DNA of 18,201 nt from Muribaculaceae bacterium. Lineage in GTDB: Bacteria; Bacteroidota; Bacteroidia; Bacteroidales; Muribaculaceae. The notes below the pieces were generated by a model. It saw only the letters and a list, made by a program, of their open reading frames with translations. It made no database searches and was not told the origin of the DNA. Positions 1 through 17,050 of this stretch are shown here, one piece after another. The stretch spans positions 1-18,201 of the forward strand of contig JAIDPP010000205.1 of assembly GCA_029062725.1 (NCBI GenBank). The letters run 5' to 3'. Made by a program: the position numbers and the translations under genes. The number at the start of each line of letters is the position of its first letter. Position 1 is the first letter of the stretch.

Positions 1-47
1 CTACACATATTAAGTCGTCGGCAGCGTCAGTTGTGTATATGAGACAG
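1..47 (+). other. Illumina Nextera adapter remnant (non-genomic)
   Basis: Bases 1-6 (CTACAC) match the end of the Illumina P5 oligo. Bases 7-14 (ATATTAAG) sit where an 8-base i5 index would be. Bases 15-28 match the Nextera read-1 overhang, and bases 29-47 match the 19-bp Tn5 mosaic end except for A-to-T changes at positions 31 and 40. All blocks are in the correct order and orientation for a library molecule whose insert begins at base 48. This is therefore untrimmed adapter at a contig end rather than bacterial sequence. Any protein that starts inside it (for example at the GTG at 33) has an artificial N-terminus. Confidence 0.96.
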
Positions 48-488
48 GTGATGCAGACGGCCAATTCGCGGGAACGAGGGGTTTATAATGGAGAAACCGG
101 TCGGATAACGGCTGTCACCCCCGAAGAGCAGACGCTGGAGGTCACCTTCTCCGACGGTCGCACCTCACTCTACGCCCGCAGCGAATTGAGCGAACTTGTG
201 CTTGCATACGCCACGACAGTCCATAAACTGCAAGGCTCCGAGGCACGCAACATCATCATCCCCGTAACGATGGCCCATAAGCCGATGCTCTACCGTAACC
301 TGATCTACACAGCCGTAAGCCGTGCAACGCGCCTCTGCATCCTTGTAGGGGAGAAAGAGGCTCTCGAATATGCCATAGAGAATACTCCGGCCGGTCGCCG
401 CAACTCCAATTTCCGCTATAGGCTTCAGGAAGAGGGAAGGGAGAAAGACGATGAAAAAGGAGATATAGACGATGGGTGTTACTCTTAA
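48..488 (+). CDS. RecD-like ATP-dependent DNA helicase, C-terminal fragment
   Basis: This is the 3' end (about 146 codons) of a superfamily 1 helicase of the RecD/RecD2 type, a DNA-unwinding enzyme of recombination and repair. The visible part opens with VMQTANSRERGVYNGETG, the small beta-barrel segment that precedes the last helicase motifs. It continues with LAYATTVHKLQGSEA (motif V region) and NLIYTAVSRATRLCILVG (motif VI, with the arginine of the arginine-finger region), together the UvrD_C_2 fold. The last 20 or so residues are a highly charged tail with no recognisable domain. The Walker A and B motifs lie upstream and are missing because base 48 is the junction with sequencing adapter. 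The reading frame is open across the adapter, so the upstream methionine there is artificial. The family call is firm; RecD2 versus another RecD-like helicase cannot be settled from this fragment. Confidence 0.88.
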   Translation: MMQTANSRERGVYNGETGRITAVTPEEQTLEVTFSDGRTSLYARSELSELVLAYATTVHKLQGSEARNIIIPVTMAHKPMLYRNLIYTAVSRATRLCILVGEKEALEYAIENTPAGRRNSNFRYRLQEEGREKDDEKGDIDDGCYS

Positions 489-503
489 CCGGAAAATTCT
501 TTG

Positions 504-511
504 TAACTTTG
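504..511 (+). promoter_or_regulatory. Bacteroidota -7 promoter element (TonB receptor operon)
   Basis: TAACTTTG matches the Bacteroidota primary sigma factor -7 consensus TAnnTTTG. It lies 19 bases before the ATG of the receptor gene, which implies a very short leader. No good TTTG -33 element is seen at the expected 19-21 bp upstream; only a weak TGTTA occurs near 477-481, inside the end of the helicase gene. The call rests on the -7 match and on position. Confidence 0.6.
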
Positions 512-530
512 CCACCGAAACGAAAGAGAG

Positions 531-2594
531 ATGGCAAAATCAATTTTCATACCCTTTTCCGCCCTGCTTGCCTCGGGATCTTTTTTCCCTGTCGCGGCGC
601 AGGAATCTGCCGATTCCATAGGACAGCTTGAAGAGATTGTCGTCACGGGACAGTCAGCAGGAAGCCGCATAAGTAGCCTGCGTCTGGGCGCCGAGAACCT
701 CGAACTATCCAAGATGGCTCTGATGCCGGTGCTATTCGGCGAGAACGATATCATCAAATCTATCACTTATCTTCCGGGAGTGCATAGCGAGGGCGACGGT
801 GCCGGAGGATTCGAGGTCCGGGGAGGCACATCCGGACAGAACCTTCTCCAACTCGACGGAATGACCCTCTATAACCCCACACATGTGATGGGTATTTTCT
901 CCACATTCAATGATCAGGCGATAGGTCATGCCACCCTCTATAAGGGTCCGATTCCGGCGGCTTTCGGCGAAGCCTCCTCCTCAGTGCTGGAGACGTCTCT
1001 CAATCCGGGCTCCCTTGAGAAATGGGGCGGTTCGGGCACCATAGGCATCCTCGCGGCCAAAGTCGCGGCCGGGGGTCCGGTAGTGAAGGAGCGGTTGTCA
1101 CTTGCCGTCACCGCACGGCGCTCATACGTTGACGCCTTTCTGAAACTGGTGCCGGAATACCGCGACATAGTGATGAATTTCTATGACGTTACCGCCAAGG
1201 TGCGCTATCAGGCGCGCAAGGAAGATGCCCTTGATCTTTCCTTCATAGCGGGCCACGACAATATGGCTATCGGAGGCGTCATGGGAATGTACTGGGGGAA
1301 TATCGCCGGGTCTGCGCAATGGAGCTCGCGCCGCGGCGATAACTGGAGATTCGCCACCACAGGCGCCTATACTTCTTTCGCTACCAAAATGGAGATGAGC
1401 ATAATGAAGGATGAACAGCTTCTGCGGGAATATATCCGCAACGCCTCCCTTAATGAGAACATACGTTACGATATTGATGAAGACCGTTCGCTTGATTTCG
1501 GAGTGAGATCGGAACTGCTGAGGGTGATGTCGGCCGATTTCACGCTTGCCGGAAACCGTAACCGGGATGTCAGGAGCGGCTGGGTCAACGCGGCCTGGGT
1601 CAATTACGAGGGGGTTCTCGGAGGTCCGCTCTATCTTTCGGGGGGAGTGAGGCTGAGCCTCTTCAGCACTCTGACCGGCGATCGTTTCCATCGTTTCTAC
1701 TCCATTCAGGAACCACTCCCTTCCTACATCCCTAAAACCTATTTCACTCCCGAGCCGCGCCTGAGTCTGAAATGGGAGATCAATGAAAACCATAATGTAA
1801 AGGGGGGAGTGTCGCTGACGAGCCAGAGCCTTCATTCGATGCGTGGCAGCGAGACGAGCATGCCTTTCGACCGCTACATGCTCTCCACTGCCGGAATAAA
1901 GCCGGAGCGGACCTGGCAATATGCGGCCGGATATGCCGGAATGACGCCCGATGGAGACTTCGACTGGTCGGCGGAGGCTTATTTCAAGCGGATGGAAAAT
2001 GTGTATGACTATCGCGATGGGAAAAGCATGTTTTCGGCTCTCGACATGGAGACGATAGTCCTGGGTGGGCGCGGAAGGAGCTATGGAGCGGAGTTTATGG
2101 CGCGCAAGAACAGCGGGCGCCTCACGGGATGGATCTCCTACAGTATTTCGAAGACACAGACCAAGATAGCCGGTATAAACGGGGGCCGATGGTATGACGC
2201 TACCAACGACCGCCGCCATGATCTTTCGGTCGTGGCTCTATACCACCTGACCGACCGCTGGAATCTCTCCGGCTCATGGATCTATTCCTCCGGTACTCCT
2301 CTGACCGCACCCGATGATAAATATGAATTGAGCGGAACCACCATCTATTATTACAGCAAACGGAACGGTTACCGCACTCCCGCCACCCACCGTCTCGACC
2401 TCTCCGCCACCTATACCCACCGGGGACGGCGTCTGACTTACGAATGGAGTTTCGGTGTCTATAACCTTTATTGCCGTTATAATCCGTATATTGTGTATTT
2501 CGAGGATGATCCGACGAACCCTTCCGGTTCGCGCGCTGTGTTGCGGGCGATGTTCGGAATCGTACCTTCGGTCTCATATACACTGAGATTCTAA
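531..2594 (+). CDS. TonB-dependent outer-membrane receptor
   Basis: This 687-aa protein is predicted to be a gated outer-membrane beta-barrel that imports a ligand with energy from TonB/ExbBD. A signal peptide (about residues 1-23, ending VAAQ) is followed directly by LEEIVVTGQ, which begins the plug domain. Plug hallmarks are ENDIIKSITYLPGV, FEVRGGTSGQNLLQLDGM and LYNPTHVMGIFSTFN (about residues 70-125). From about residue 145 the chain alternates polar and aromatic residues like barrel strands, and it ends in SVSYTLRF with the C-terminal phenylalanine typical of Bam substrates. It lacks the N-terminal carboxypeptidase-regulatory-like domain that many Bacteroidota receptors of this group carry, so it is somewhat short. 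The ATG at 531 directly precedes the signal peptide. It is followed after 30 bp by a DUF4249 lipoprotein, a common partner. The substrate cannot be told from sequence; the partner is not a SusD protein, so a polysaccharide ligand should not be assumed. Confidence 0.92.
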   Translation: MAKSIFIPFSALLASGSFFPVAAQESADSIGQLEEIVVTGQSAGSRISSLRLGAENLELSKMALMPVLFGENDIIKSITYLPGVHSEGDGAGGFEVRGGTSGQNLLQLDGMTLYNPTHVMGIFSTFNDQAIGHATLYKGPIPAAFGEASSSVLETSLNPGSLEKWGGSGTIGILAAKVAAGGPVVKERLSLAVTARRSYVDAFLKLVPEYRDIVMNFYDVTAKVRYQARKEDALDLSFIAGHDNMAIGGVMGMYWGNIAGSAQWSSRRGDNWRFATTGAYTSFATKMEMSIMKDEQLLREYIRNASLNENIRYDIDEDRSLDFGVRSELLRVMSADFTLAGNRNRDVRSGWVNAAWVNYEGVLGGPLYLSGGVRLSLFSTLTGDRFHRFYSIQEPLPSYIPKTYFTPEPRLSLKWEINENHNVKGGVSLTSQSLHSMRGSETSMPFDRYMLSTAGIKPERTWQYAAGYAGMTPDGDFDWSAEAYFKRMENVYDYRDGKSMFSALDMETIVLGGRGRSYGAEFMARKNSGRLTGWISYSISKTQTKIAGINGGRWYDATNDRRHDLSVVALYHLTDRWNLSGSWIYSSGTPLTAPDDKYELSGTTIYYYSKRNGYRTPATHRLDLSATYTHRGRRLTYEWSFGVYNLYCRYNPYIVYFEDDPTNPSGSRAVLRAMFGIVPSVSYTLRF

Positions 2595-2624
2595 ATTAGA
2601 GTGAACAAGGATCAAAGACTATAA

Positions 2625-3431
2625 ATGGATAAGAAGATATATAAGTTAGCAGCCGTAATGGCGTTGGTGCTTACTTTCCTTTGCGGTTGCGAGAAGGAAC
2701 TCGATTTCAAATACAACGATATAGACCCTATCCCGGTAATAGAGGGCTCCTTGACGCAGCATGGGGCGGAGGTTTCGCTTACCCTCACCACTCCTATGGA
2801 TGAGCCCATGCGTCGCGAACGGCTTACGGATGCCGAGGTAAGTATCCTTGACCTCACTACAGGAGAGGAGATTATGCTGACCATTGACGCAGAAGGGTTT
2901 TACGTCTCTCCGCAAGGAGGACTGGAGGGCCACACCTACCGCCTGATCGTGAAGCGCGGAGGGGAGCTCTACACCTCTGACTGCGAGATGCGTCCGGCTG
3001 TGGAGATCACCGGGATGGAGTTCTCATGGATAAAGATGCCCTACGATTATGTGGCTGTGCTTCAGGTCTCGTTTACGGATAATCCGGCTACGGTCAACGA
3101 CTGTTACTGGATGCGTCTTTACCGTAACGGAGCGGCCTACCAATGGGCCGAGCTGAACGATATCCATGCCTCCGGAGGGGTGATCGATAAGGTGGTGATG
3201 ACCACGCGGCGCGATCTTGAAGAGGAGGATGAAGCCGACCGTCTTGAGAAAGGGGATGTGGTGACAGCTACGATAGTGCCTGTAAGCCGCGCCATGCATG
3301 ATTATTTAGAGGCGTTGGCCGTAGGGAACAGCAACGGCCCGCGGATGTTCACCGGCGGTTTCTGTCTGGGCTATTTCCTTGCCGCACCCATTGCCGAGCG
3401 GACACTTATCTTTGATCCCGACAGCTTCTGA
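2625..3431 (+). CDS. DUF4249-family outer-membrane lipoprotein
   Basis: A 268-aa lipoprotein. Residues 1-21 form a signal peptide with a hydrophobic core and a lipobox (LCGC), so Cys22 is the predicted lipidated residue. The following EKELD is acidic, which fits surface-exposed Bacteroidota lipoproteins. The body resembles DUF4249: IPVIEGSLTQHGAEVSLTLTTP near the N-terminus, an Ig-like segment around TDAEVSILDLTTGEE and GHTYRLIVKRGGELYTSDC, and the closing GYFLAAPIAERTLIFDPDSF. DUF4249 proteins are typically encoded just downstream of TonB-dependent receptors, as here (30 bp gap, same strand, no promoter visible between). They are presumed to be accessory or ligand-capturing subunits, but no biochemical role is established to my knowledge. 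The family call rests on pattern resemblance and context. Confidence 0.8.
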   Translation: MDKKIYKLAAVMALVLTFLCGCEKELDFKYNDIDPIPVIEGSLTQHGAEVSLTLTTPMDEPMRRERLTDAEVSILDLTTGEEIMLTIDAEGFYVSPQGGLEGHTYRLIVKRGGELYTSDCEMRPAVEITGMEFSWIKMPYDYVAVLQVSFTDNPATVNDCYWMRLYRNGAAYQWAELNDIHASGGVIDKVVMTTRRDLEEEDEADRLEKGDVVTATIVPVSRAMHDYLEALAVGNSNGPRMFTGGFCLGYFLAAPIAERTLIFDPDSF

Positions 3432-3538
3432 TAAGAAGATAATAATCAGATTAAGAAGCGCGATCTTATGTGTAGAGAACTTTTCCTTCAGTTCGTGAGA
3501 TTTTTTGGAAGTCTGAAAGATATTCCGGATAATTTCAT

Positions 3539-3546
3539 TAACTTTG
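3539..3546 (+). promoter_or_regulatory. Bacteroidota -7 promoter element (alpha-amylase)
   Basis: TAACTTTG is identical to the -7 element before the TonB receptor. It lies 39 bases before the ATG of the amylase gene, in the only sizeable gap (154 bp) between that gene and the lipoprotein gene. No convincing TTTG stands about 20 bp upstream; the nearest, within 3501-3508, is about 31 bp away. The amylase is therefore probably transcribed on its own rather than from the receptor promoter. Confidence 0.6.
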
Positions 3547-3585
3547 CGTATTAATTACTTAAAAAGCTTAACATTAAAATCAGAC

Positions 3586-5796
3586 ATGAAAGGATTATAC
3601 TCACGCGCCTTGGCTTTAGGGCTTTTCGGCGCGGCTGTGGCAGCCACGGCTCCCGACGTCTCCGCACTCGGCTGGCCCGAGAATTACGAAGGCGTTATGC
3701 TCCAGGGGTTTTACTGGGATTCCTACAAGGATACAGCATGGACCAACCTTGAATCTCAGGCCGACGAGCTGTCAAAATATTTCAAGCTCATCTGGATTCC
3801 CAATTCCGGGAAATGCTCCTATATGGGTTATATGCCCCAGTATTGGTTCACGAACCATAATTCAGCCTTTGGCAGTGAGCAGGAGCTCCTCTCGATGATC
3901 TCCACCTACAAGGCGAAGGGAACCGGCTTCATAGCCGACTGTGTTATCAACCACCGTAACGGCGTGACAGGCTGGTATGATTTCCCTGTAGAGAAATGGA
4001 ACGGCCAGACCTGGAGCATCGGACTTGACGGGATCTGCCGTAACGACGAGATGTATTGGAATGAGGATCAGCCCAATCCTACTGGAAACTATGATACGGG
4101 AGAGAATTTCGACGGTTGCCGCGACCTGGACCATACAAATGCCAATGTGCAGGACAACTGCAAGAACTATGTGAAATGCCTCAAGGAGAAATACGGCTAC
4201 ATAGGTATGCGCTACGATATGGTGAAAGGTTACGGAGGTCAGTATAATAAGATCTACAACACTTACGCCGATGTGGAATATTCCGTTGGGGAGTATTGGG
4301 ATGGCTATGACGCTATAGCTGCCTGGATCGAGGCTACGGGAAAGACATCGGCGGCTTTTGATTTCCCGTGTAAGTATGCGCTCAATGAGGCTTTCTCCAC
4401 CGGAGACATGACCAAACTGGTATGGAAGGAGAACGGCGTCAATGATCAGCCGGCCGGAATGATCCATCATTGGTATCAGCGTTACGCGGTGACGTTTGTG
4501 GATAACCATGACACATACCGCGACGGTTCCAAATATACGGGCAATGTAATAGCAGCCAATGCCTTTATCCTCATGTCGCCCGGTACTCCTTGTGTCTTCC
4601 TTCCCCATTATCAGGCGTACAAGGAGGAGATTCAGCGCCTGATCGATATCCGTAACTCCGCAGGGATCCACAACCAGTCGAGTGTGAAGGTGCTTCGCTC
4701 TACCAGCGACTGCTATATGGCGGAGGTTGACGGGAAGAGAGGGAAGGTAGTGGTCAAGGTAGGCGGCGCTATGGCCTCTCCCGCCGGTTATTCCGATTCC
4801 GATATCAAGGCTGCCGGAAGCGACTATTGCGTATGGACCAAAGTGAATGTCGGAGGTGGCGACGATCCGGTCCCGACCCCTGCGGTTCCCGATCATTTAT
4901 ATCTGATGGGAAATCTTGATGGCGCTCAATGGAGCACATCGGCCTCCCCGGAGATGAAAAAGGATGGAGGCAAGTTCACCATAAGCGCTACTTTTGCGGT
5001 AGCCCCCGGGGAGAAGTATGCCTACTTTAATTTCTGCGATGCTCTGGCAGAAGATTGGGAGCCCCTGAATGCTACGGCTAACCGTTACGGAGCTCCGGAG
5101 GAGGGAACCGTTATCGCTGACAATACCACGGTAAAGATTCAGAAGCACGAGCGCGGAATTTCGGCTTCGAAAGTTCAATCCTGGAAGATTCTTCCGGGCA
5201 CATATACATTGACTGTGGATTTCAGCGATATGAGCCTTACTGTAGGAGAGCGAGGGGAGATAGAGACGGATCCGATGCCTGCTCATTTCTATATCATCGG
5301 TCATGCCGACGGTAATGACTGGGCCTCCGATAAGGGTGTGGAAATGGAGATTTCCGGTGATTGTTTCGTGGCTAAAGTGGATTTAGTGCCTCCTGTTGCT
5401 TCAGATACACGTGCGGGAAAGGCTAACGCTTATTTCAGTTTTACAAAGAGTCTTTCCGACACCTGGGACGGTTTGAATATCGCCGGCAACCGTTATGCTC
5501 CGGAAGTCGATACAGAGCTTACACCGGATGGAAGGCCTGTGGAGCTTAAGGCCAGTGCCAATCCGGCGGAGGCAAAAGCCTATAATGTGGTCCCCGGCCG
5601 ATACGACGTGGAGGTGAACTGGAAGGATAAGACCATCCGTCTGCGATCCGCCATAGAATCGGGGATCGGCTCCATCGACGTGTCGGGTGAGAAAGCGGCC
5701 TATTACAACCTTCAGGGGGTGAGAGTCGTATCACCCAAGAAAGGAGAAATCTACATCTGTGTGAAAGGAAATAAAGCGTGGAAAGTGGTATATTGA
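3586..5796 (+). CDS. Secreted GH13 alpha-amylase with two C-terminal modules
   Basis: This 736-aa protein is predicted to hydrolyse internal alpha-1,4 bonds of starch or glycogen outside the cytoplasm. Residues 1-27 are a signal peptide ending VSA, with no lipobox. The GH13 barrel (about 29-420) shows all conserved regions: FIADCVINH (I, Asp118), GMRYDMVKG (II, nucleophile Asp211), VGEYW (III, acid/base Glu236) and FVDNHDT (IV, Asp309). Two similar modules follow. Residues 436-555 start HLYLMGNLDGAQW and 565-688 start HFYIIGHADGNDW; each has YF(N/S)F, a W-x-x-LN stretch, NRY and a final GxYxxxV strand. They look like SusE/SusF-type starch-binding folds, but binding is inferred. The end (705-736) has YYNLQGVRV, a G-x-IYI stretch and a terminal Lys-Val-Val-Tyr, resembling a Bacteroidales C-terminal sorting domain. 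I chose the ATG at 3586 because the in-frame TTG at 3544 lies inside the promoter and would spoil the signal peptide. Confidence 0.93.
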   Translation: MKGLYSRALALGLFGAAVAATAPDVSALGWPENYEGVMLQGFYWDSYKDTAWTNLESQADELSKYFKLIWIPNSGKCSYMGYMPQYWFTNHNSAFGSEQELLSMISTYKAKGTGFIADCVINHRNGVTGWYDFPVEKWNGQTWSIGLDGICRNDEMYWNEDQPNPTGNYDTGENFDGCRDLDHTNANVQDNCKNYVKCLKEKYGYIGMRYDMVKGYGGQYNKIYNTYADVEYSVGEYWDGYDAIAAWIEATGKTSAAFDFPCKYALNEAFSTGDMTKLVWKENGVNDQPAGMIHHWYQRYAVTFVDNHDTYRDGSKYTGNVIAANAFILMSPGTPCVFLPHYQAYKEEIQRLIDIRNSAGIHNQSSVKVLRSTSDCYMAEVDGKRGKVVVKVGGAMASPAGYSDSDIKAAGSDYCVWTKVNVGGGDDPVPTPAVPDHLYLMGNLDGAQWSTSASPEMKKDGGKFTISATFAVAPGEKYAYFNFCDALAEDWEPLNATANRYGAPEEGTVIADNTTVKIQKHERGISASKVQSWKILPGTYTLTVDFSDMSLTVGERGEIETDPMPAHFYIIGHADGNDWASDKGVEMEISGDCFVAKVDLVPPVASDTRAGKANAYFSFTKSLSDTWDGLNIAGNRYAPEVDTELTPDGRPVELKASANPAEAKAYNVVPGRYDVEVNWKDKTIRLRSAIESGIGSIDVSGEKAAYYNLQGVRVVSPKKGEIYICVKGNKAWKVVY

Positions 5797-5812
5797 TCCA
5801 ATGAATTGAAAT

Positions 5813-5859
5813 AAAAAGGGGGAATATCCTGACTGACAGCCGGGATATTCCCCCTTTTT
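5813..5859. terminator. Bidirectional rho-independent terminator
   Basis: A perfect 17-bp inverted repeat, AAAAAGGGGGAATATCC at 5813-5829 and its complement at 5843-5859, encloses a 13-nt loop. The arm ends in five Ts on the plus strand and, by symmetry, five Ts on the minus strand. It lies 16 bp after the amylase stop and 42 bp beyond the stop of the convergent restriction-modification operon, so it should end transcription from both sides. Confidence 0.93.
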
Positions 5860-5901
5860 ATTTACAGTTTATAGGGTAAGTGGGTAAAGAGATGGTTGTT
5901 C

Positions 5902-8811
5902 CTACTTATTTTTCAGGCTGACACGTTTACGCACTGATGTAATAAGTAGCTCATAGAAGAAGTCGAGAAGTTTCACGGGGAGATTGTATGCCCTAAGAAC
6001 GGCTTTATCAAATTCAATCCTATCCTTACGCTTTACTTCTTCAAAGACCGTTCCGATTTCACGTGATTCTAAAACTTTGAAATTCTTAAGAATAAGTTGC
6101 CGGTCTTTTGGTGAAATCAGAGAGGGATCAGGAAGTTTTATTGTTTTGAAATAGTTTGCATTTAGGTCTAATGCACCGAGGTTCCTTGAAGTTCCCTTGA
6201 ATTCCAAGGTTAGGAAAGTGACAATGGAATTAAGTAAAGCACAGACCAACTTCAACTCAGATTTCTTGCTGATCTGCAGACCGGTCATCCTTTGATCGAA
6301 TGCAAAAGGAGTAGGAGAGTATGTGAAGAAAAACCGTTCGTATGGATTTATAGCAGTTATTATATTTGCTGTCTTTGGATTAATGGAATACCAGAAAGGC
6401 TTATGTCCGGCACATGCCTGCGGCACGGTAAGAGAGCCATTCCTGTTCATTGTATTAACAAAGCGGTTGATCCATTTCTTTGTGGCAGTGTCCAAAGAAT
6501 CGATAGGGGTAGCGCATACAAAGACGGAGTGTCGGTAATCTTCTGCAAATTTGATAGATCGACATTCGACAGGAGATTTTATGTAAGGCTTCAGGTATTT
6601 AGATTCAATTCCTAAAGTTTCAATTTCCTTGTCGGGTATAATAAACATCGGATTCCATCCAGTCCTTTCTCCCCTGATAACGTTTACTACATTAGGATAA
6701 TATTGAACGGATACACGATCGAACATCTTTAAAGGATCAACAGCAGTAAAGAATTGATCCCAATTTATTCCTGTTGAAAGAGAAGTAAGCAGAGTATCCC
6801 TGTCAACAGTAACTATCTCCATGAGGTTGTCTATGGAATTTACTTTTTCCGGAAAAACATTATCCACCTTCCAATAAGGATTCATCCCCGGCTCTGAATT
6901 ATCTATGTTTAAATATAGATTTTCGATTTTTTCCAGTTGACTTTTTACATCTTTTGTATCCTCAAAGAAATATGAGAGTTTGAAATTTAAATTAACGAAT
7001 TTAGTAGGTTTATTAAGATTTCCTTTCTCTGCCACGAAGAAAAGAGTGGATACCTGAGAGTCTGAAAACCAGTGTTCCGCTGTGCTCCTCACCACATATT
7101 TTATGTGGAAATTATTCAGGAGAAAATCCTTGAATTGTAGTCCGTAGTCCTTACCGAGCCATGCATTTGATGTAATGACGGAAAGTACGCCACCTGGCTT
7201 AAGAAACTGAAGAGAGTTATATACACAGTATGCGAAGTAATCGGCACGCTCGTTGATATGAAACTTATCCTTTTTGATAAATGCGCGTTGTGTTTTCCCA
7301 AATGTTTCTTTGAATAGGAATGTAAGTTTATCATTAGGTATATCCTCCTGTTGAATAAAAGGAAAATTACTGGCTATCCCATCAAAGAGGGGTATCTCTT
7401 CCGAAAGGTGTTTAGAGTAATCTGAAGAATCGGGGAAAGATATATCTTTACCCACATATAGATTAAAGAAATCCTCCCGGATTACTCGGGGGAAATTATC
7501 TGATTGCGTAACATCCTGCTTATAAAGATTAATGACCGAAAGGATAGCAGGAAAATGAGAGATATCATTACCCCATATCTGTCTCAATAATTTCTGATGA
7601 TTATTGTTTCCCCAATAGGAAAGGATTTTATAGAAGGAATTTAAGAAACTTCCGGTTCCGGCCGTTGGGTCGAACAACATTGCGTTTCTGTCAATGACGG
7701 CCGGAAAAGCAACTAAATCAGCTAAATGCTCGGAAGTGAAGTATTGGCCTAATTTTTGCTTTTCATCGTCTGGAACCAGATTCTCCAAAATAGTTCCTAT
7801 CACGCCAGCAGGGAGAATCTTGAAGTCAAATTCTTTAAGAGTGTCAATGAGCTTAGACAAAGCTTCGCAAGTCTCCTTGGAGAAAGCGATCTCATCCGTA
7901 AAGTATGGCATGAAAATAGCTTGATAATCTATTTCCTTGGCTTTACCGAAGAATGTTTCAAGTTCTTTTTGGAGATAAAGAGGATTATTAATAGTCAGGA
8001 GAGGAATTTGTGCTGGTAGGTTTTCATGTAATGTAAGGTAGAAAAGCAACTTTCCGATTACATTATAGAATGTGAAGGTGGCCAAAACCTGTTTTTCATC
8101 AATAAACTCGACTTTACGAGAGGATGACCCCAGTATCTTTAATGTCGAACTCTCATAGATTTTCCATTGATTATATTTATTCCTAAAATCCCGACTTTCC
8201 CCTATCCTGATATTTATGGCTTCTCTGAATTGGGGAACTATAATATTTTGCGCACGCTTTATTGCTTCAATTATATTACCGGAGATATTGATGGCTGTTT
8301 TCAACTCCCCTTTTAATCGCAACATATCAAGATCATGTAGAATTTCGGAGGCTCTGCGCCGCAAAGAGGCTTCATGAGTGCTATATTTTGTCGGGTCAGC
8401 TAAATCCTCCCGGTAGTTGATGGTTTTGACTTTTGGATAGCGTTTAAGAATTGTCAGGTTCTCAAGTGAATAGCTGTCTGTATCAATTTTCCAAATGATT
8501 GCTTCCGCTCCGTTCCAAGTCACAAACGAATCTGAATTGATTCGTCTGGCTTTTTCCAGGGCATTTTCTAACATTGCGACGTCATCTACCTTTGTGTCGG
8601 GAAATTTCAGTTCCCAACCATTGAAAATCAATCCTGAAGTCTTATTTGAGAAAATAAGAATATCAGGAAATTTAGTACGTCCACCTTCTATACTTACACT
8701 GGTGTCGTTTGTGGCATCTTCGAATGTTGTAGTTCCTTTTGATATATCCTCTTTCAACCAACTAATCAACTGACCTGCCCAATCCCTTTCGTTACGTTTG
8801 ATAGATGCCAT
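5902..8811 (-). CDS. Type IIG-like restriction enzyme: fused PD-ExK nuclease and N6-adenine methyltransferase
   Basis: A 969-aa single-chain enzyme predicted to recognise a DNA site, methylate adenine with S-adenosylmethionine, and cut DNA lacking the mark. The N-terminal region (about 1-120) has FPDILIF (Pro49-Asp50) and, 17 residues after the Asp, WELK (Glu67-Lys69), a PD-(D/E)xK nuclease signature. A helical linker leads to LGQYFTSEHLADL (motif X, about 354-366), FDPTAGTGSFL (motif I, 380-390) and SNFPF (motif IV, 481-485), the X-I-IV order of gamma-class methyltransferases. The last 370 or so residues look like a target-recognition region, rich in aromatic and basic patches. Motif IV has Phe where NPPY/NPPF enzymes have the first Pro. 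The frame also opens at a TTG at 8829, but I prefer the ATG at 8811, four bases after the stop of the upstream methyltransferase. The gene is visibly richer in A+T than its neighbours. Recognition sequence unknown. Confidence 0.88.
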   Translation of the reverse strand: MASIKRNERDWAGQLISWLKEDISKGTTTFEDATNDTSVSIEGGRTKFPDILIFSNKTSGLIFNGWELKFPDTKVDDVAMLENALEKARRINSDSFVTWNGAEAIIWKIDTDSYSLENLTILKRYPKVKTINYREDLADPTKYSTHEASLRRRASEILHDLDMLRLKGELKTAINISGNIIEAIKRAQNIIVPQFREAINIRIGESRDFRNKYNQWKIYESSTLKILGSSSRKVEFIDEKQVLATFTFYNVIGKLLFYLTLHENLPAQIPLLTINNPLYLQKELETFFGKAKEIDYQAIFMPYFTDEIAFSKETCEALSKLIDTLKEFDFKILPAGVIGTILENLVPDDEKQKLGQYFTSEHLADLVAFPAVIDRNAMLFDPTAGTGSFLNSFYKILSYWGNNNHQKLLRQIWGNDISHFPAILSVINLYKQDVTQSDNFPRVIREDFFNLYVGKDISFPDSSDYSKHLSEEIPLFDGIASNFPFIQQEDIPNDKLTFLFKETFGKTQRAFIKKDKFHINERADYFAYCVYNSLQFLKPGGVLSVITSNAWLGKDYGLQFKDFLLNNFHIKYVVRSTAEHWFSDSQVSTLFFVAEKGNLNKPTKFVNLNFKLSYFFEDTKDVKSQLEKIENLYLNIDNSEPGMNPYWKVDNVFPEKVNSIDNLMEIVTVDRDTLLTSLSTGINWDQFFTAVDPLKMFDRVSVQYYPNVVNVIRGERTGWNPMFIIPDKEIETLGIESKYLKPYIKSPVECRSIKFAEDYRHSVFVCATPIDSLDTATKKWINRFVNTMNRNGSLTVPQACAGHKPFWYSINPKTANIITAINPYERFFFTYSPTPFAFDQRMTGLQISKKSELKLVCALLNSIVTFLTLEFKGTSRNLGALDLNANYFKTIKLPDPSLISPKDRQLILKNFKVLESREIGTVFEEVKRKDRIEFDKAVLRAYNLPVKLLDFFYELLITSVRKRVSLKNK

Positions 8812-8815
8812 AAAA

Positions 8816-9667
8816 TTAATGTTTTGCAAAATCCTCCAGAGTAAAAAGGCTATTATTTGTGACTTCTTCCAGTCTTTGATTGCAGACTGTAATATAGTCG
8901 GTATCGATTGTTTTATGCAGTTTTACATCTTTATTTTTTTCAATCCCGATATATTTACGTCCTTCAAGTGCCGCGGCAACCAAAAAACTTCCACTACCGC
9001 AAGCATTGTCCAAAACCACGTCTCCGGGATTAGTATATGTACGGATCAGATAACGACCCAGTTCAACAGGTTTTTGAGTGGGATGATAGACCTTACCTTC
9101 CGATTCAGCAGTCTTGAAGTATAAGAAATCCTCCTGAGGTCCTTCCTCGAAGCAAATCACGTCATTGGGATATCGGTTGCCATCACTTTTTATGTGTCGT
9201 GGTTTGAAGTCACCGTAACTTCCTGTAAACTGATCTTTCCTGATCCCTTTGTCGTAACTTTCTCCAGCAGTCATCTGGGGGTTATAGGTCGGTTGCTGTC
9301 GATAGAATACACATATATCCTCATGCTTTCTAAGAGGTTGCTTTTTTGCATTAAGGAAATTGGTTGATTTTGATTTAATCCAGACTATTTTGTATTTGAA
9401 CCATTTCTCGTTGCTAAGAATAAGGTGAGCTGTGAATATACCCTGGGACGTCAGAACGATCACTCCATTCTCCTTTACAATACGTGTGTATTCTGCCCAT
9501 AATTTATCAAGATCAATCACAGAATCCCATTTATTCTGGGTTGTACCATAGGGAAGATCACACAGAACCATATCTACTGATTTATCCGGAATCAATGGCA
9601 TTAAGTCAAGACAATCTGCCTCAAAAACTTTATTAACAAACTTATCAATCGGTTCCATATACAACAT
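8816..9667 (-). CDS. Site-specific DNA methyltransferase, beta-class (probable adenine-N6)
   Basis: A 283-aa methyltransferase, first gene of the restriction-modification operon. The catalytic motif IV, DLPYGT (residues 37-42), is near the N-terminus. The SAM-binding motif I (LDNACGSGSF, 219-228) and the HPTQKP segment (195-200) are near the C-terminus, which is the beta-class order. The segment 105-190 between them is the likely target-recognition region. D-x-PY enzymes of this class transfer methyl to adenine N6 or cytosine N4; similarity of DLPYGTTQNKWD to known adenine methylases favours N6. The ATG at 9667 gives the longest form; a second ATG at 9658 is equally possible. The stop lies four bases before the nuclease-methyltransferase ATG, so the two are co-transcribed and probably translationally coupled. 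Placing the methyltransferase first lets protection appear before cutting. A likely job is to methylate the opposite strand of an asymmetric site. Confidence 0.9.
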   Translation of the reverse strand: MLYMEPIDKFVNKVFEADCLDLMPLIPDKSVDMVLCDLPYGTTQNKWDSVIDLDKLWAEYTRIVKENGVIVLTSQGIFTAHLILSNEKWFKYKIVWIKSKSTNFLNAKKQPLRKHEDICVFYRQQPTYNPQMTAGESYDKGIRKDQFTGSYGDFKPRHIKSDGNRYPNDVICFEEGPQEDFLYFKTAESEGKVYHPTQKPVELGRYLIRTYTNPGDVVLDNACGSGSFLVAAALEGRKYIGIEKNKDVKLHKTIDTDYITVCNQRLEEVTNNSLFTLEDFAKH

Positions 9668-9719
9668 ACTGTTCTGTCAGTTGCAATCCTCGTGTGGATT
9701 TACAGGTATTGTTTTAGAG

Positions 9720-9753
9720 AAATGGTTTTAGATTAATGTTTTGAAAACCATTT
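9720..9753. repeat. Perfect 10-bp inverted repeat in R-M leader
   Basis: AAATGGTTTT at 9720-9729 and AAAACCATTT at 9744-9753 are exact complements separated by 14 bases. The distal arm starts three bases downstream (minus strand) of the R-M -7 element, so the repeat covers the expected transcription start and early leader. It could be an operator for a repressor or a hairpin at the mRNA 5' end. There is no U tract to make it a terminator. Confidence 0.7.
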
Positions 9754-9756
9754 ATT

Positions 9757-9788
9757 CAAATTTAAGAATTTATATTTATATTTCCAAA
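9757..9788 (-). promoter_or_regulatory. Promoter of the restriction-modification operon
   Basis: On the minus strand TTTG (9785-9788) is followed after exactly 20 bp by TAAATTTG (9757-9764), matching the Bacteroidota consensus TTTG-N19-21-TAnnTTTG. Transcription should begin near 9750, giving a leader of about 80 bases before the methyltransferase ATG at 9667. It points away from the divergent lipoprotein promoter. Confidence 0.82.
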
Positions 9789-9820
9789 TTGGAGGAGGAT
9801 TAAAATTGCCGAATATTTAT

Positions 9821-9828
9821 TAAATTTG
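9821..9828 (+). promoter_or_regulatory. Bacteroidota -7 promoter element (DUF5715 gene)
   Basis: TAAATTTG matches TAnnTTTG and lies 55 bases before the ATG at 9884. No TTTG is found at the proper distance upstream, so the -33 side is weak. The rest of the 216-bp divergent spacer (9668-9883) is very A+T-rich and holds only the R-M promoter and the inverted repeat; I see no small gene in it. Confidence 0.55.
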
Positions 9829-9883
9829 CAGAATAAACACGCTTAATATAAAATAAAACAGGAATCGAAGAAAGCCGGACATA

Positions 9884-10741
9884 ATGTTACACCATCGCCA
9901 TTTTCATATCTTCCTTATAGCCTCGGTATTATCCATCGGGTTGATATCATCGTGCGGGCAGGGGAAGAAAAGTTATGATATCGACAGTCTGATAGAGGAT
10001 TATGCCTATGAGGAGGGAACGGAGTTTGTGGAGCTGCATGTGATGCGTCCCGGCGACAGGGACTCCTCCGGGGAAGAGATTCTAACCTCGAAGGAAGAGG
10101 CCGTAGCGGACACTGTTGACTCAGAGGCTGACGGCTATAGCGAGGAGCCGGAGACTGAAATCAAGGATGAGAGGCCGGTGCAGAGAGTACGCACCCGCAA
10201 TCTGGGACGTCTGCGGGAAGTTTTCAACGATTCCAACTACAGGCAGCTCGTATATGCGCAGAGTCTGGGAATAGCTCCGATCCGCAGCCTCTCGGATGCC
10301 TACCATACCCGGCGTCCTATCGTACGCGTGAAGAGCAACCGGGATTATACGGTCGATACCCTCACCCATTCGCTACCTTATCTGGTTCCAGAGGCAGAGC
10401 GGCTGCTTCGCGACATAGGACGCAATTTCCAGGATTCCCTTAAGAAAAGAGGGGATGCCCGTTACCGTGTCAGAGCAACCTCGCTGTTGCGCACTCCGGC
10501 TACAGTGAAGAAGCTGCGGCGTGTCAACATCAATGCCACCGATTCCTCCACCCATCAGTTCGGAACGACTTTCGATCTTTCCTATCACCGTTTCCACAAT
10601 CTTAATCCTGCTGTCGAGGTCTCAACCGAAGACCTTAAAAATGTATTGGCCGAGGTGCTTTACGATCTCCGTGAGCAAGGACGCTGTCTGGTTAAGTTCG
10701 AGCGCAAGACGGGGTGCTTCCACGTCACTGTCACACACTGA
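9884..10741 (+). CDS. DUF5715-family lipoprotein with M15 peptidase-like zinc site
   Basis: A 285-aa lipoprotein. The signal peptide ends in ISSC, so Cys24 is the predicted lipidated residue. Residues 55-100 are an acidic, low-complexity linker, which places the C-terminal domain away from the membrane. That domain contains [16 protein letters not shown] (198-213), then [14 protein letters not shown] (221-234), then CFH (278-280). The pattern Ser-x-His-x2-Gly-x3-Asp plus a late His matches the three zinc ligands of M15/VanY D-Ala-D-Ala carboxypeptidases (here His224, Asp231, His280). I therefore infer a cell-wall (peptidoglycan) peptidase or a close relative; the DUF5715 name is from memory of the family and activity is not shown. 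It reads divergently from the R-M operon. Its last 11 bases overlap the 3' end of thyA tail to tail, with no room for a terminator. Confidence 0.82.
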
Positions 10742-11525
10742 CTTGCCCTTTTATCGGAGGCCAGGGGTTGTAATCCTCAAGAGAGAAATCGTCATACCTG
10801 AACGCGAATATATCTTTCACTTCCGGATTCAGATGCATCCTCGGAAGGACCCGGGGTTCCCGCGCCAGCTGTTCGCGCACCTGGTCGAGGTGATTGAGGT
10901 AGATATGGGTATCGCCTGTGGTGTGTATGAATTCACCGGGTTCGAGGCCGCATACCTGCGCCATCATCATGCATAGGAGAGCGTAGGAAGCAATATTGAA
11001 AGGAACACCGAGAAAACAGTCGGCGGAACGCTGATAGAGTTGCAGCGATAACTTTCCGTCAGCCACATAGAACTGGAAGAAGGCATGGCATGGAGGAAGA
11101 TTCATATTCTTGAGATCGGCCACATTCCAGGCCGACACGATAATTCGGCGGGAGTCGGGACTATGCTTTATTGCCTCCACTGCTTCTGAAATCTGGTCGA
11201 TGAATCCTCCGTCATAGTCAGGCCACGACCGCCATTGATACCCGTAGATATGTCCCAGCGAGCCTTCGGGGTCAGCCCATTCATTCCATATCCTCACGCC
11301 GTTGTCCTGAAGATATTTCACATTTGTATCCCCTTTGAGAAACCATAGCAGCTCATGGATGATACTTTTCAGATGGACCTTTTTTGTCGTAAGGAGTGGG
11401 AAACCCTCGGAGAGATCAAAACGCATCTGGTGGCCGAAGATGGATATGGTTCCCGTCCCTGTACGGTCCTCCTTGCGGTGGCCCTCGGAGAGTATTTTCT
11501 TCAAGAGATCCTGATATTGTTTCAT
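10731..11525 (-). CDS. thyA: Thymidylate synthase
   Basis: This 264-aa enzyme converts dUMP to dTMP using 5,10-methylenetetrahydrofolate, in the cytoplasm. Length and residue numbering equal those of E. coli ThyA. Seen directly: RTGTGT with Arg21, WNEWAD (80-85), [11 protein letters not shown] with nucleophile Cys146, [19 protein letters not shown] (dUMP-binding Arg166 region), [11 protein letters not shown] and the C-terminal GQVSV. The gene is complete and all key residues are present. Its ATG overlaps the stop of the preceding polyferredoxin gene in an ATGA (11522-11525), so translation is coupled. A dihydrofolate reductase gene often follows thyA; here the next gene is instead the convergent DUF5715 gene, overlapping by 11 bp. 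Confidence 0.97.
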
Positions 11526-12340
11526 TTCGCTTCTGTTCTTTTCTGAAATAACGGAGTGAGTGGCATATTACGGTTCGACTGGAAACGTATGGCGTCCTCA
11601 TCACATACGGCCAGGCAGTCGAAGCATCGCAGACACCGGGGGTTATCCACCAGGCGATCAGTGACCTTTATACAGTGGGCCGAGCAGACATCTTCGCATT
11701 TCCCGCAGTACGTGCATCGGTCCGGATCAATCTCGATATTCATTATAGAGGAATGACCGATCGCGCAGAGAGCGGCACCAAGCGGGCATACGGTCGTGCA
11801 GTAATCTCGTCCGGACATCACTGACCAAACGGATACGATAATGAATGAGACGATTCCCGAGATTATACCGGTCGAAACACCATAACCGAAATCTATCCAT
11901 GTATCTGAGATAGCCTCGGGTCGCACTGTGGCCGCCATATCCGCCGTCATGTTCCAGGGGCCGAGGACATATCCTACCGGGAGGAAACCGAGGAGGAGGC
12001 TAAGGATAAATCCAATAAGGCATAATTCCCCCCAGATTTTCCTTGTTTTCCAACGGTAGGGTTTCTTTTTCTTCCGGAGGCGTCTTCCGAGTCTGGCGAA
12101 GAAATCGGTCATCGCCCCGATCGGGCATACCGTGGAGCAATAGATCCTGCCGAAGGAGAGAGTGATAAGGAGCCACACGAGTGTGGCTCCTATCGTAGTT
12201 GCAAGCAGAGAAAGATTTATCTGGCTTTTGACGGATATAACCGCCATGGGGTGAGCATCCGGTCCGATACAAAGATAGACCGTAGATGCGGCGAAGAATA
12301 GAATCGCCAGAAAAATCCTGAAAACTCTGATATTCTTCAT
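11522..12340 (-). CDS. Membrane-bound 4Fe-4S polyferredoxin (NapH/CcoG-like)
   Basis: A 272-aa inner-membrane iron-sulfur protein, predicted to pass electrons at the membrane. About four hydrophobic segments are seen (near 6-26, 42-64, 106-127, 153-175). Two CxxxCP motifs at the membrane edge, CSTVCP (Cys68, Cys72) and CTTVCP (Cys181, Cys185), are hallmarks of the NapH/CcoG/NosR-type family. The C-terminal part carries two ferredoxin clusters: [11 protein letters not shown] (209-219) and [11 protein letters not shown] (236-246). The basic loop 86-100 ([15 protein letters not shown]) should face the cytoplasm. It follows yidC by 40 bp with no promoter in the gap and overlaps thyA by 4 bp. No nitrate or cytochrome oxidase genes are nearby, so the specific NapH or CcoG role is not supported; the electron partner is unknown. 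Confidence 0.87.
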
Positions 12341-12380
12341 TTATGGGATAATCCTGTAAAAAAACGTTTAAGGTGAGACA

Positions 12381-14477
12381 TTACCGTTTACCCTGTTTCT
12401 TCTGCTGCTCGCGGAGCATGGCCTGCTGCTGGCGCTGCATCTCCTCGACGCGAGCCATAAACCCGGATTTCTTCTTAGGCTTTTTGGCGTTCTCGGCCAT
12501 CTTCTTTCTCACATCCTCCTCCTTGATGATGAAGCGGAAGGCGAAGGTCTGCATGATTGTGATGAGCAGGGAAAGGAAATAGTAGTAGGAGAGGCCTGCC
12601 GCATAGTTGTTGAAGAATACGAGGAACATGATCGGCATCAGATACATCATCCATTTCATTCCGGGCATACCGGAATTCGACTGGTTCTGCATGTTGATGT
12701 AGGTGTAAATGATGTTGGTCACTGTCATCAACAGACAGAAGAGGGATATGTGGTTTCCGAAATATTCAGTCACGAACGGGATGTTGCCGCTCCATGAGAT
12801 GATTGCGTCGGGAGCGGAGAGATCGTGGGCCCAGAGGAAACTTTGGCCTCGCAGCTCGATGCATGAAGGGAAGAAAGCGAACATCGCGAAGAGGATCGGC
12901 ATCTGCAGCAGCATGGGGAGGCATCCCGACATCGGGTTTGCTCCGGCCTGCGAATAGAGAGCCATGGTCTTCTGCTGGCGGGTAAGGGCGTTGGCCTGAC
13001 CGGGATATTTGTCGTTGATCTCCTTGATCTGGGGAGCGAGGAGACGCATCACGGCCTGGCTCTTGTAGCTCTTGTAGGTGAGCGGGAAGAGGATAAGCTT
13101 GATGAAGATAGTCAGCAGAAGGATGATTATGCCATAGTTGGAGATAAAGCTTCCGAGGAAGGTGAACACCGGAATGACGATGATGGTGTTGATCCAGCGG
13201 AAAAGACTCCATCCGAGGGGAATCAGACGCGTAAGGTGAAGGTTCTCCCCTGGGTCGATGCTCTTGTCGAGACCGGAGAGTAGGGGATAGAGGTTAGGCC
13301 CTATGTAGAGGGAGAAAGAGGCTGGATTGGGAGCAGACCAGTCATAGTCGTTGACCACAGCCTCGGCAGTAACCTTCTTAAGGTAGTCGGAACCTTTCAG
13401 CACCTCCGATTGAAAATCCGCCGAATGGAAATTTCTGTCGGCGATAAGGACAGAGGAGAAGAACTGGTTCTTGAATCCTATCCACTTGATTTTTGTCTGG
13501 CGTTCTTCAGTATCGTTCTTGGATTCAGAGAGGTGTTCCACAGAACCTCCGGCGAATTTATAGTAAAGGCCGGAATTTCGCTCCTCGAACATACGGCCCT
13601 TCTCCTGACGGCGGATATCCTGCATCCAGGTGAGGCCGAGGTTTCGGTTGTTAGACATAACTGCCTGCGCCATATTCTGCTGCACCACCTTGACGCCGAT
13701 CACATAACTGTCGCCTTTGGGGAGGGTGTATTCCAGGCCCCACCAAGAATCCGGAGATAGATTGAGAGTCATGCGGACTGTGGTGTCGTTGAGCTGAACG
13801 GGAGTGAAGTACAGGTCGGAGGTTCCGACAGGATTGGGGAGGGGAATATTGAAATTCAAGCTGTTGGATTCTCCCTCGAAAATCACCACCTTGTTCTTAA
13901 CGCTCTTGGTTTCGTCGGCGGAATATTCCGTGTCATATTTCTTAAGCTCAGCTTTTGTTATTGATCCCGACTTGCTGCTGAGGTCGAGGGCAAGGACATC
14001 GTTTTCGAGGCGTACAGTCTTGTTCTCTCCGACGGTGAACTGCGCGAACTTTCCGTAGCGTCCCATATTGTTGGAGAGGCTTCTTACGTTCTGGATTGCC
14101 TGACGCTGCTCTGCGGCCGACATTTTGGAGAGGTCAGCTGCTGTGATGTCGCTCCAGGCGAGCTTACGTCCGTTGACAGAGACGTAGCCGAAGATAGAAT
14201 CTCCGGCTAAAGATAGGTCTATACCGGCCTGGGAAAGATTGGTCACTTTAGAGGAATCCGGGAGGATACGTGTGGTTCCGTTGTCGGCGATGTTGGCGCG
14301 GAGCCATTCCATCTCTGTGGCCGACAGGCGATCGACGCCTCCGGGAGCGGTCTGTTCTGTAATGGCCTTTTTAGGGGCGTCGTTCTTCTCTTCGGGCTGC
14401 GGTTTGGGAGTGAGCCACATGAAAAGGAGGAAAACGGCGGCCATCAGGATCAGGCCGTTCAAGGTGTTTTTATCCAT
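12381..14477 (-). CDS. yidC: Membrane protein insertase YidC
   Basis: A 698-aa inner-membrane insertase that folds and inserts membrane proteins alone or with SecYEG. Transmembrane segment 1 is at residues 7-22. The large periplasmic domain runs to about 415 and includes FTVGENKTVRLENDVLALDLSSK (147-169). The conserved five-helix core is at about 420-650: helices near 427-465, YKSYKSQAVMRLLAPQIKEI (468-487) with the groove Arg478, NPMSGCLPMLLQMPILFAMFAF (514-535), 577-595 and 609-646. The tail (652-698) is very basic and Gln-rich, which fits ribosome binding. It is longer than the roughly 620 residues I remember for Bacteroides YidC; the extra length appears to lie between helix 1 and the periplasmic domain (about 50-145). 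It sits 19 bp after pyrG and clearly in the same operon. Confidence 0.96.
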   Translation of the reverse strand: MDKNTLNGLILMAAVFLLFMWLTPKPQPEEKNDAPKKAITEQTAPGGVDRLSATEMEWLRANIADNGTTRILPDSSKVTNLSQAGIDLSLAGDSIFGYVSVNGRKLAWSDITAADLSKMSAAEQRQAIQNVRSLSNNMGRYGKFAQFTVGENKTVRLENDVLALDLSSKSGSITKAELKKYDTEYSADETKSVKNKVVIFEGESNSLNFNIPLPNPVGTSDLYFTPVQLNDTTVRMTLNLSPDSWWGLEYTLPKGDSYVIGVKVVQQNMAQAVMSNNRNLGLTWMQDIRRQEKGRMFEERNSGLYYKFAGGSVEHLSESKNDTEERQTKIKWIGFKNQFFSSVLIADRNFHSADFQSEVLKGSDYLKKVTAEAVVNDYDWSAPNPASFSLYIGPNLYPLLSGLDKSIDPGENLHLTRLIPLGWSLFRWINTIIVIPVFTFLGSFISNYGIIILLLTIFIKLILFPLTYKSYKSQAVMRLLAPQIKEINDKYPGQANALTRQQKTMALYSQAGANPMSGCLPMLLQMPILFAMFAFFPSCIELRGQSFLWAHDLSAPDAIISWSGNIPFVTEYFGNHISLFCLLMTVTNIIYTYINMQNQSNSGMPGMKWMMYLMPIMFLVFFNNYAAGLSYYYFLSLLITIMQTFAFRFIIKEEDVRKKMAENAKKPKKKSGFMARVEEMQRQQQAMLREQQKKQGKR

Positions 14478-14496
14478 TTTATGAGTTGTTGTTGTT

Positions 14497-16125
<1,629 letters not shown>

Positions 16126-16136
16126 TTAGTTTTCTG

Positions 16137-16168
16137 CAAAGTTAATACCGATTCGGCGGATACGCAAA
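16137..16168 (-). promoter_or_regulatory. Promoter of the pyrG-yidC-polyferredoxin-thyA operon
   Basis: On the minus strand TTTG (16165-16168) is followed after exactly 20 bp by TAACTTTG (16137-16144), a near-perfect Bacteroidota promoter. The -7 element ends 17 bases before the GTG of pyrG, so the leader is only about ten bases. It lies in the 104-bp gap after the acyltransferase gene. The run of seven Ts at 16169-16175 (As on the minus strand) forms an A tract just upstream of the -33 element. Confidence 0.85.
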
Positions 16169-16223
16169 TTTTTTTCTCACTTAGGCGGTGTAAGCCGTAT
16201 AGGTGAGGTATGCAGGCTGGAGA

Positions 16224-17021: not shown

Positions 17022-17050
17022 AATCCTTGCTCTTGCCTCTTTATCCGCGT

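Follow-up and report, generated by a model that had tools for sequence, protein, structure and literature searches.

A stretch of 18,201 nucleotides from a Muribaculaceae bacterium (assembly GCA_029062725.1, contig JAIDPP010000205.1, positions 1 to 18,201; hereafter the window) carries on its reverse strand, at positions 9667-5902, a pair of open reading frames (ORFs) that a first-pass annotation had read as a two-gene restriction-modification cassette. Both ORFs were found there, with the methyltransferase gene first and a four-base gap between the two, as that annotation had described. The upstream gene encodes a beta-class DNA adenine methyltransferase (beta), and the downstream gene encodes a type IIG restriction endonuclease-methyltransferase with a gamma-class methyltransferase domain (gamma). 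The cassette is ordinary in kind, being a type IIG system with an accompanying methyltransferase, which is widespread and made of catalogued protein families. Its unusual part is that gamma has been exchanged several times among relatives while beta changes little. The features discussed below are collected in Table 1.

Table 1. Features of the cassette and its surroundings (window positions unless a locus is named).
Feature	Position	Strand	Basis
Beta-class DNA adenine methyltransferase, 283 aa; codon 4 is a second ATG	8816..9667	-	Pfam, PADLOC, PDB relatives
Beta motif IV, D37-L-P-Y40	9548..9559	-	invariant in alignments
Beta recognition region, residues 112-190	9098..9334	-	conserved like catalytic parts in 81 pairs
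Four-base gap, beta stop to gamma ATG	8812..8815	-	ORF coordinates
Type IIG restriction endonuclease-methyltransferase (gamma), 969 aa	5902..8811	-	Pfam, PADLOC, AlphaFold model, Foldseek
Nuclease domain of gamma, residues 1-130, PD-ExK (P49 D50 ... E67 L K69)	8422..8811	-	invariant residues, AlphaFold model
Gamma-class methyltransferase domain, about residues 301-640; motif I DPTAGTG 381-387, motif IV NFPF 482-485	6892..7911	-	Pfam, conservation, Foldseek
Target recognition domain of gamma, about residues 641-920	6052..6891	-	stretch exchanged between L097 and L070; CamA, BseCI and MmeI structural matches
Inverted repeat bordered by runs of A and T, in the space separating gamma from the convergent amylase gene; likely bidirectional terminator	5810..5870		read from sequence
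A+T-rich spacer from which the beta and DUF5715 genes diverge; presumed to hold the promoter	9668..9883		sequence
Prokaryotic Argonaute genes in related loci	L048:7924-9957, L068:7899-9800, L085:7924-10206		L048 and L068 scanned by name; L085 by BLAST cluster

Beta matched the Pfam model N6_N4_Mtase (6.4e-29) and the PADLOC model MTase_II (PDLC03251; 1.6e-64, 216 bits), and its relatives in the PDB are CcrM, RsrI and MboIIA. The order of its motifs (IV, then HPTQKP, then DNACGSGSF) places it in the beta class, in line with the first-pass annotation. An aspartate in motif IV indicates adenine as the target base. Gamma was read from the ATG at 8811; starting at a TTG in the same frame at 8829, it would run into beta. 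It matched the Pfam models Eco57I (3.1e-11) and N6_Mtase (5e-11), both above the cut-off, and the PADLOC model REase_MTase_IIG (PDLC03606) over residues 4-944 (7.6e-112, 373 bits). These matches indicate that beta and gamma are homologous genes and not chance ORFs; as displayed, the two PADLOC entries state neither the pairing nor a target.

The type IIG build that had been proposed for the large protein was recovered in a single chain, consisting of a PD-(D/E)xK nuclease, a gamma-class methyltransferase (motif I, then motif IV) and a C-terminal recognition domain, which would serve both activities. When complete pairs of beta and gamma were compared, 81 pairs were left once redundant entries and gammas that were incomplete or scored low had been dropped (47 of clade A, to which the window belongs, and 34 of clade B). 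The nuclease residues P49, D50, E67 and K69 and the methyltransferase residues D381, G385, G387, N482, P484 and F485 were invariant in all of them. The AlphaFold model of gamma (mean predicted local distance difference test score, pLDDT, 86.7; predicted template modelling score 0.79; residues 37-47 below a pLDDT of 50) gave the nuclease-like fold that the first-pass annotation had named as a check. In residues 8-125, a helix (8-24) is followed by two strands (51-56 and 61-68), a helix (78-90) and two further strands (95-99 and 104-109), with D50 just ahead of the first two strands and E67 inside them. A helical linker, the methyltransferase and the recognition domain come next. The top Foldseek match to the model was RM.BpuSI (PDB 3s1s; E 2.2e-25, 1034 columns, 13% identity), and the 50 rows listed also included CamA, BseCI, MmeI (5hr4), BrxX and DrdV. 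The template modelling scores by query length were low (0.27-0.45), and the superposition on BpuSI was poor as a rigid body (root-mean-square deviation 16.9), which we attribute to bending between domains.

The linkage of beta and gamma was examined in contigs of GTDB, where 244 gamma relatives were found and the best 80 (75 loci) kept. Beta was present in 73 of these 75 loci, and the other two (L093 and L098) start right at the edge of their contigs. The arrangement varied in a few cases: beta lies downstream in convergent orientation in L112, and in L092 a distance of 1.3 kb separates it from a shortened gamma downstream. Among viral contigs, seven of eight gamma matches were of the paired type, all seven with beta, and the eighth was a short partial match. 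Seven plasmid records covered at least 80% of gamma; beta adjoins it in all six bacterial ones (three called from annotation and three from coordinates), and the haloarchaeal record H7 has gamma without beta next door. No beta was seen in the stretches covered around seven more distant gammas (L034 and L036-L040, 1116-1169 aa; L043, 1002 aa), the upstream sequence covered being 162 bases for L039 and less than 0.9 kb for L038 and L040. The partnerless gammas of L034 and L036-L040 have a C-terminal extension of about 150 residues. By record title, carriers include Bacteroidota, Pseudomonadota, Bacillota, a spirochaete, planctomycetes, Patescibacteria and an archaeal assembly. Some carriers are in culture, among them Allomuricauda taeanensis (L097), a Chryseobacterium strain (L070) and Flavobacterium taihuense (L067). 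Judged by these gene neighborhoods, beta-gamma is a conserved two-gene unit that is kept together across phyla.

Within this unit the two partners behave differently. Identity between clades A and B averages 26% for gamma and 65% for beta, and pairwise identity of beta over all pairs is 50-100%. The recognition region of beta is as conserved as its catalytic parts (clade A, 0.80 versus 0.82 and 0.79; clade B, 0.72 versus 0.71 and 0.71). Betas up to 95.7% identical adjoin gammas of different clades. In the gamma tree, A versus B is one split, whereas the clade labels need five changes on the beta tree, three of them forced by starred branches. However, an approximately unbiased test with all 34 clade-B betas held as one clade did not reject that arrangement (p 0.186). 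Because the tree alone is thus unproving, the partner exchange rests on the DNA comparison and on L097 and L260. The DNA of L062 (clade A) and L114 (clade B) is 97.7% identical over 1554 bases, comprising an upstream helix-turn-helix (HTH) gene and beta; the identity ends at the beta-gamma junction, and similarity returns past gamma and the next gene. Both are metagenome assemblies, so a chimera is possible for that pair alone. L097, a clade-A locus from a strain record, shows the same junction against the clade-B loci L113 and L033 at a DNA identity of 78-80%. In L260, a long beta aligns with the HTH-beta fusion of the clade-A locus L070 over 410 residues at 86% identity, but the gamma is of clade B, 77% identical to that of L113. 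In three loci (L062, L097 and L260) a gamma of the other clade stands beside a steady beta. A literature search by title and start of abstract found no paper on this beta-gamma pair and no description of gamma being exchanged under a steady beta.

Since near-identical betas stand beside gammas of both clades, the targets of the two enzymes would need to overlap. We consider it probable that the cassette is a type IIG restriction-modification system with a separate protective methyltransferase, the target of beta overlapping or covering the sites of gamma. In its favor are the domain build with BpuSI as top structural match, the invariant catalytic residues, the near-constant presence of beta, the conserved recognition region of beta, and six recognition-domain residues that paired gammas share (listed below). 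Gamma would recognize an asymmetric site by means of its C-terminal domain and methylate adenine in one strand, and its N-terminal PD-ExK domain would cut unmodified DNA at a fixed distance, outside the site. Beta would add N6-methyladenine (m6A) at a constant target, probably short or degenerate, that takes in these sites, and its mark would safeguard the DNA of the host once it has replicated and while the cassette becomes established.

Several observations weigh against this reading. First, the assembly behind the window totals 1.83 Mb in 441 contigs and is about 80% (79.6%) complete; one copy of the cassette was found in it. Second, the nuclease domain taken alone found no useful match in sequence searches. 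A profile of 29 N-termini gave no match in the PDB up to E 10, and Pfam returned only two one-member matches to unrelated families (E about 0.04), so that this domain is assigned from its invariant residues and the AlphaFold model. This missing match, together with a motif IV that reads NFPF instead of NPPF/Y, could mean that the cassette has decayed, with both genes in place, the nuclease inactive and only an epigenetic marker left. We regard such decay as improbable: both reading frames are open, the four nuclease residues are intact and invariant, N482, P484 and F485 are kept in every pair, and a nuclease-like fold is predicted. As position 483 is F or L in eight displayed sequences, NFPF looks like a family trait and not like decay.

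Third, the recognition domain of gamma varies beside a steady beta. L097 and L070, both of clade A, are 75-97% identical per 40-residue window up to residue 640 and 90% identical past residue 920, but only 34-62% identical between; from this alignment we read an exchange of the recognition domain, beside betas that are 83% identical. Similarly, L061 and L072 have recognition domains 45% identical and betas 98% identical in the core, and their gammas differ elsewhere too (0.62-0.72). Overall, recognition domains 42-50% identical were found beside betas 81-98% identical when L097 and L061 were compared with the L067-L073/L086 group. The seven partnerless gammas were too few and too closely akin for a diversity control, and the MmeI family of the same phylum was therefore used (30 loci, 378 usable pairs). 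The ratio of recognition-domain identity to methyltransferase-domain identity was 1.01 in clade B, 0.82 in the control and 0.72 in clade A. In clade B the two domains are thus equally conserved, unlike in the control, which favors the protective reading; in the clade of the window, conservation of the recognition domain falls well short of that of the methyltransferase domain. By identity class, clade A gave 0.58 for pairs at 50-60% and 0.66 at 60-70%, against 0.86 and 0.78 in the control; it gave 0.78 at 70-80%, like the control, and 0.90 above 80%, above the control. Moreover, no covariation of the beta and gamma recognition regions remained once the methyltransferase domain was accounted for (partial r 0.02 in clade A, with 190 of 500 permutations as high; 0.08 in clade B, with 49 of 500).

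These data bear on the idea of strict strand-splitting, in which gamma marks a single strand of the site, beta marks nothing but the opposite one, and both read it through matched recognition domains. An asymmetric site needs two marks, the linkage of beta and gamma is near-absolute, and the recognition domains of paired gammas share invariant polar residues: R713, R716, Y808, Q840, R841 and R876 each occur in 79-81 of the 81 paired gammas and in none of the seven partnerless ones, as a common core target would require. Nevertheless, strict matching seems doubtful to us, as the recognition domain of gamma diverges or is exchanged with no matching change in beta, and the accompanying enzymes of the Eco57I, BpuSI and BseRI systems are described in the passages seen of one source as methylating both strands (PMC3874165). 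The helper role that the first-pass annotation had given to beta is thus supported in part: the linked partner stands, and beta may or may not mark only the opposite strand or read the same site. Partner exchange speaks for overlapping targets, and recognition-domain exchange and absent covariation speak against strictly matched ones. Taking both together, we read the target of gamma as a common core with room for variation, which would be covered by a fixed, probably degenerate helper.

Fourth, betas of the paired type were also found without gamma. Among the best 80 matches listed in a scan of viral contigs, 12 betas were of the paired type (63-70% identity), of which four had gamma, seven lacked it in the stretch covered and one (L126) lay at a contig end. 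In 395 genomes of the class there were eight beta matches at 1e-60. Seven of them, counting the window's own, reach at least 58% identity; four of these seven are followed by gamma and three are not. One plasmid also carries a paired-type beta with no gamma in the stretch covered. Four of the gamma-less viral betas have phage-type genes nearby, namely a terminase (L132), a tail sheath (L130), a DnaB-type helicase (L131) and an exonuclease (L121). Among named phages, only two of 836 matching records reach 60% identity to beta. Viral contigs also yielded 68 relatives at a greater distance, whose mean identity to the window's beta over residues 132-191, in the recognition region, drops to 0.27-0.32. 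In L132:2110-4892, the gene for the phage terminase large subunit overlaps a paired-type beta by four bases, with no gamma in the covered stretch.

These solitary betas raise the question of whether beta protects at all. It might mark an unrelated motif of its own or regulate the operon, with gamma protecting itself as MmeI does; the lack of covariation and the existence of partnerless gamma relatives point the same way. We think this unlikely, because no gamma of the paired type was seen without beta where the covered stretch was long enough, and the conserved recognition region of beta argues for a fixed target that is needed. With a fixed target, phage-borne copies of beta would be sensible as counter-defence. 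Going beyond protective overlap, beta could be a universal helper, that is, a conserved adenine methyltransferase of low specificity or recruited by gamma, which protects the sites of many gammas. We offer this as a speculative idea with rather poor odds. If it held, the restriction half could be exchanged or re-targeted in one step with no matching change of the protector, which would break the rule that the accompanying methyltransferase pins down the target of a type IIG enzyme, and phage-borne betas would act as broad counter-defence. In that speculative case beta might be a nonspecific enzyme like M.EcoGIX, which is described as such in the part of the source seen (PMC7736820).

Of the readings weighed, a fixed and probably degenerate protective methylation, as with Eco57I, would fit the comparisons best. 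AcuI is a type IIG system of the Eco57I kind with one accompanying methyltransferase. Like the present cassette, Eco57I and BpmI combine one fused enzyme with one separate methyltransferase, according to the passages available (PMC3874165). The Eco57I precedent cited for a beta-class helper differs in its partner, since the same passages give M.Eco57I as a gamma-class enzyme that methylates both strands of the degenerate target CTNNAG, whereas the motif order and the N6_N4_Mtase match make the window's partner a beta-class enzyme. RM.BpuSI resembles gamma in having nuclease, gamma-class methyltransferase and recognition domain in one chain and in being accompanied by separate methyltransferases, but in that account its partners are a gamma-class m6A enzyme and a 5-methylcytosine enzyme (PMC3874165), whereas the window has one beta enzyme. 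Thus, the class of beta differs from the partner classes found in these literature passages. The MmeI family (type IIL) shares the three-domain build of gamma and provided the structural match 5hr4, but MmeI works without a separate methyltransferase, as stated in the part consulted (PMC4081073), and gamma has one. Gamma matched no MmeI model in Pfam, and MmeI_TRD found no match in the window's incomplete genome.

According to the parts of the sources seen, targets shift freely among MmeI-family type IIG enzymes, whereas Eco57I is supposed to be constrained by the need for its accompanying methyltransferase to go on fitting (PMC4081073, PMC3874165); that partner is said to confine the target, reading CTNNAG with only the central two bases free (PMC3874165). 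Here beta stays much the same, gamma switches clade in the three loci named above, and its recognition domain varies within clade A. These loci are natural experiments on whether a fixed helper really fixes the target, and methylomes of the strains could tell. Two further reports, seen in part, could not be tied to the beta-gamma family: a two-gene type IIG locus of Prevotella intermedia with homologues in Rikenella microfusus and no target assigned (PMC5608340), and type II motifs of Lactobacillus brevis (PMC6533708). Two other defence systems were considered for gamma and rejected. Against PglX of BREX it scored 15.8 bits (cut-off 500), with no BREX match among the ten window proteins scanned, and against MAD2 of MADS it scored 29.2 bits (cut-off 720).

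The position of the cassette in the genome is a horizontally acquired one. The cassette stretch has a G+C content of 37-40%, compared with about 49-56% on both flanks. By Pfam, its neighbors are a convergent alpha-amylase gene on one side and, on the other, a divergent DUF5715 gene followed by thymidylate synthase. The congener G743 is collinear on both flanks (DNA identity 68-78%), and the cassette spot is occupied there by a gene of 266 aa (L223:9744-10544) that stands, in the same relative orientation, where the window has positions 5797-9883. Because the congener has another gene at this spot, the cassette represents an arrival or a replacement. The 266-aa product, read by eye, appears to be an RNA methyltransferase of the TrmH/SpoU kind, and a partial match 66% identical to it lies on another contig of the window's genome. 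No regulator gene was seen in the A+T-rich stretch upstream of beta.

Several relatives carry an HTH part at beta. It is fused to the beta N-terminus in nine loci (L061, positions 3758-4130, identified by Pfam; L057, L067-L072 and L086 by similarity to L061), and in 18 loci a gene upstream of beta falls into one cluster with the HTH gene that stands by itself in L062, the only one of these that was scanned. Neither form was seen in the window. A MerR-type HTH is fused to beta in L088 (Treponema vincentii). In L123:773-2224, on a viral contig, a LexA-like part (LexA_DNA_bind and Peptidase_S24) is fused in frame to a paired-type beta, a domain combination that suggests damage-linked control.

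Downstream of gamma, co-directional ORFs of at least 140 aa were present in 34 of the 81 pairs, and 32 of these were scanned. In three loci, the gene for a prokaryotic Argonaute (Pfam Piwi, PADLOC pAgo_II) begins 3-16 bases past gamma. The same place is taken in other loci by GHKL ATPase, AAA_13, GajA-like, BrxC or PglZ proteins.

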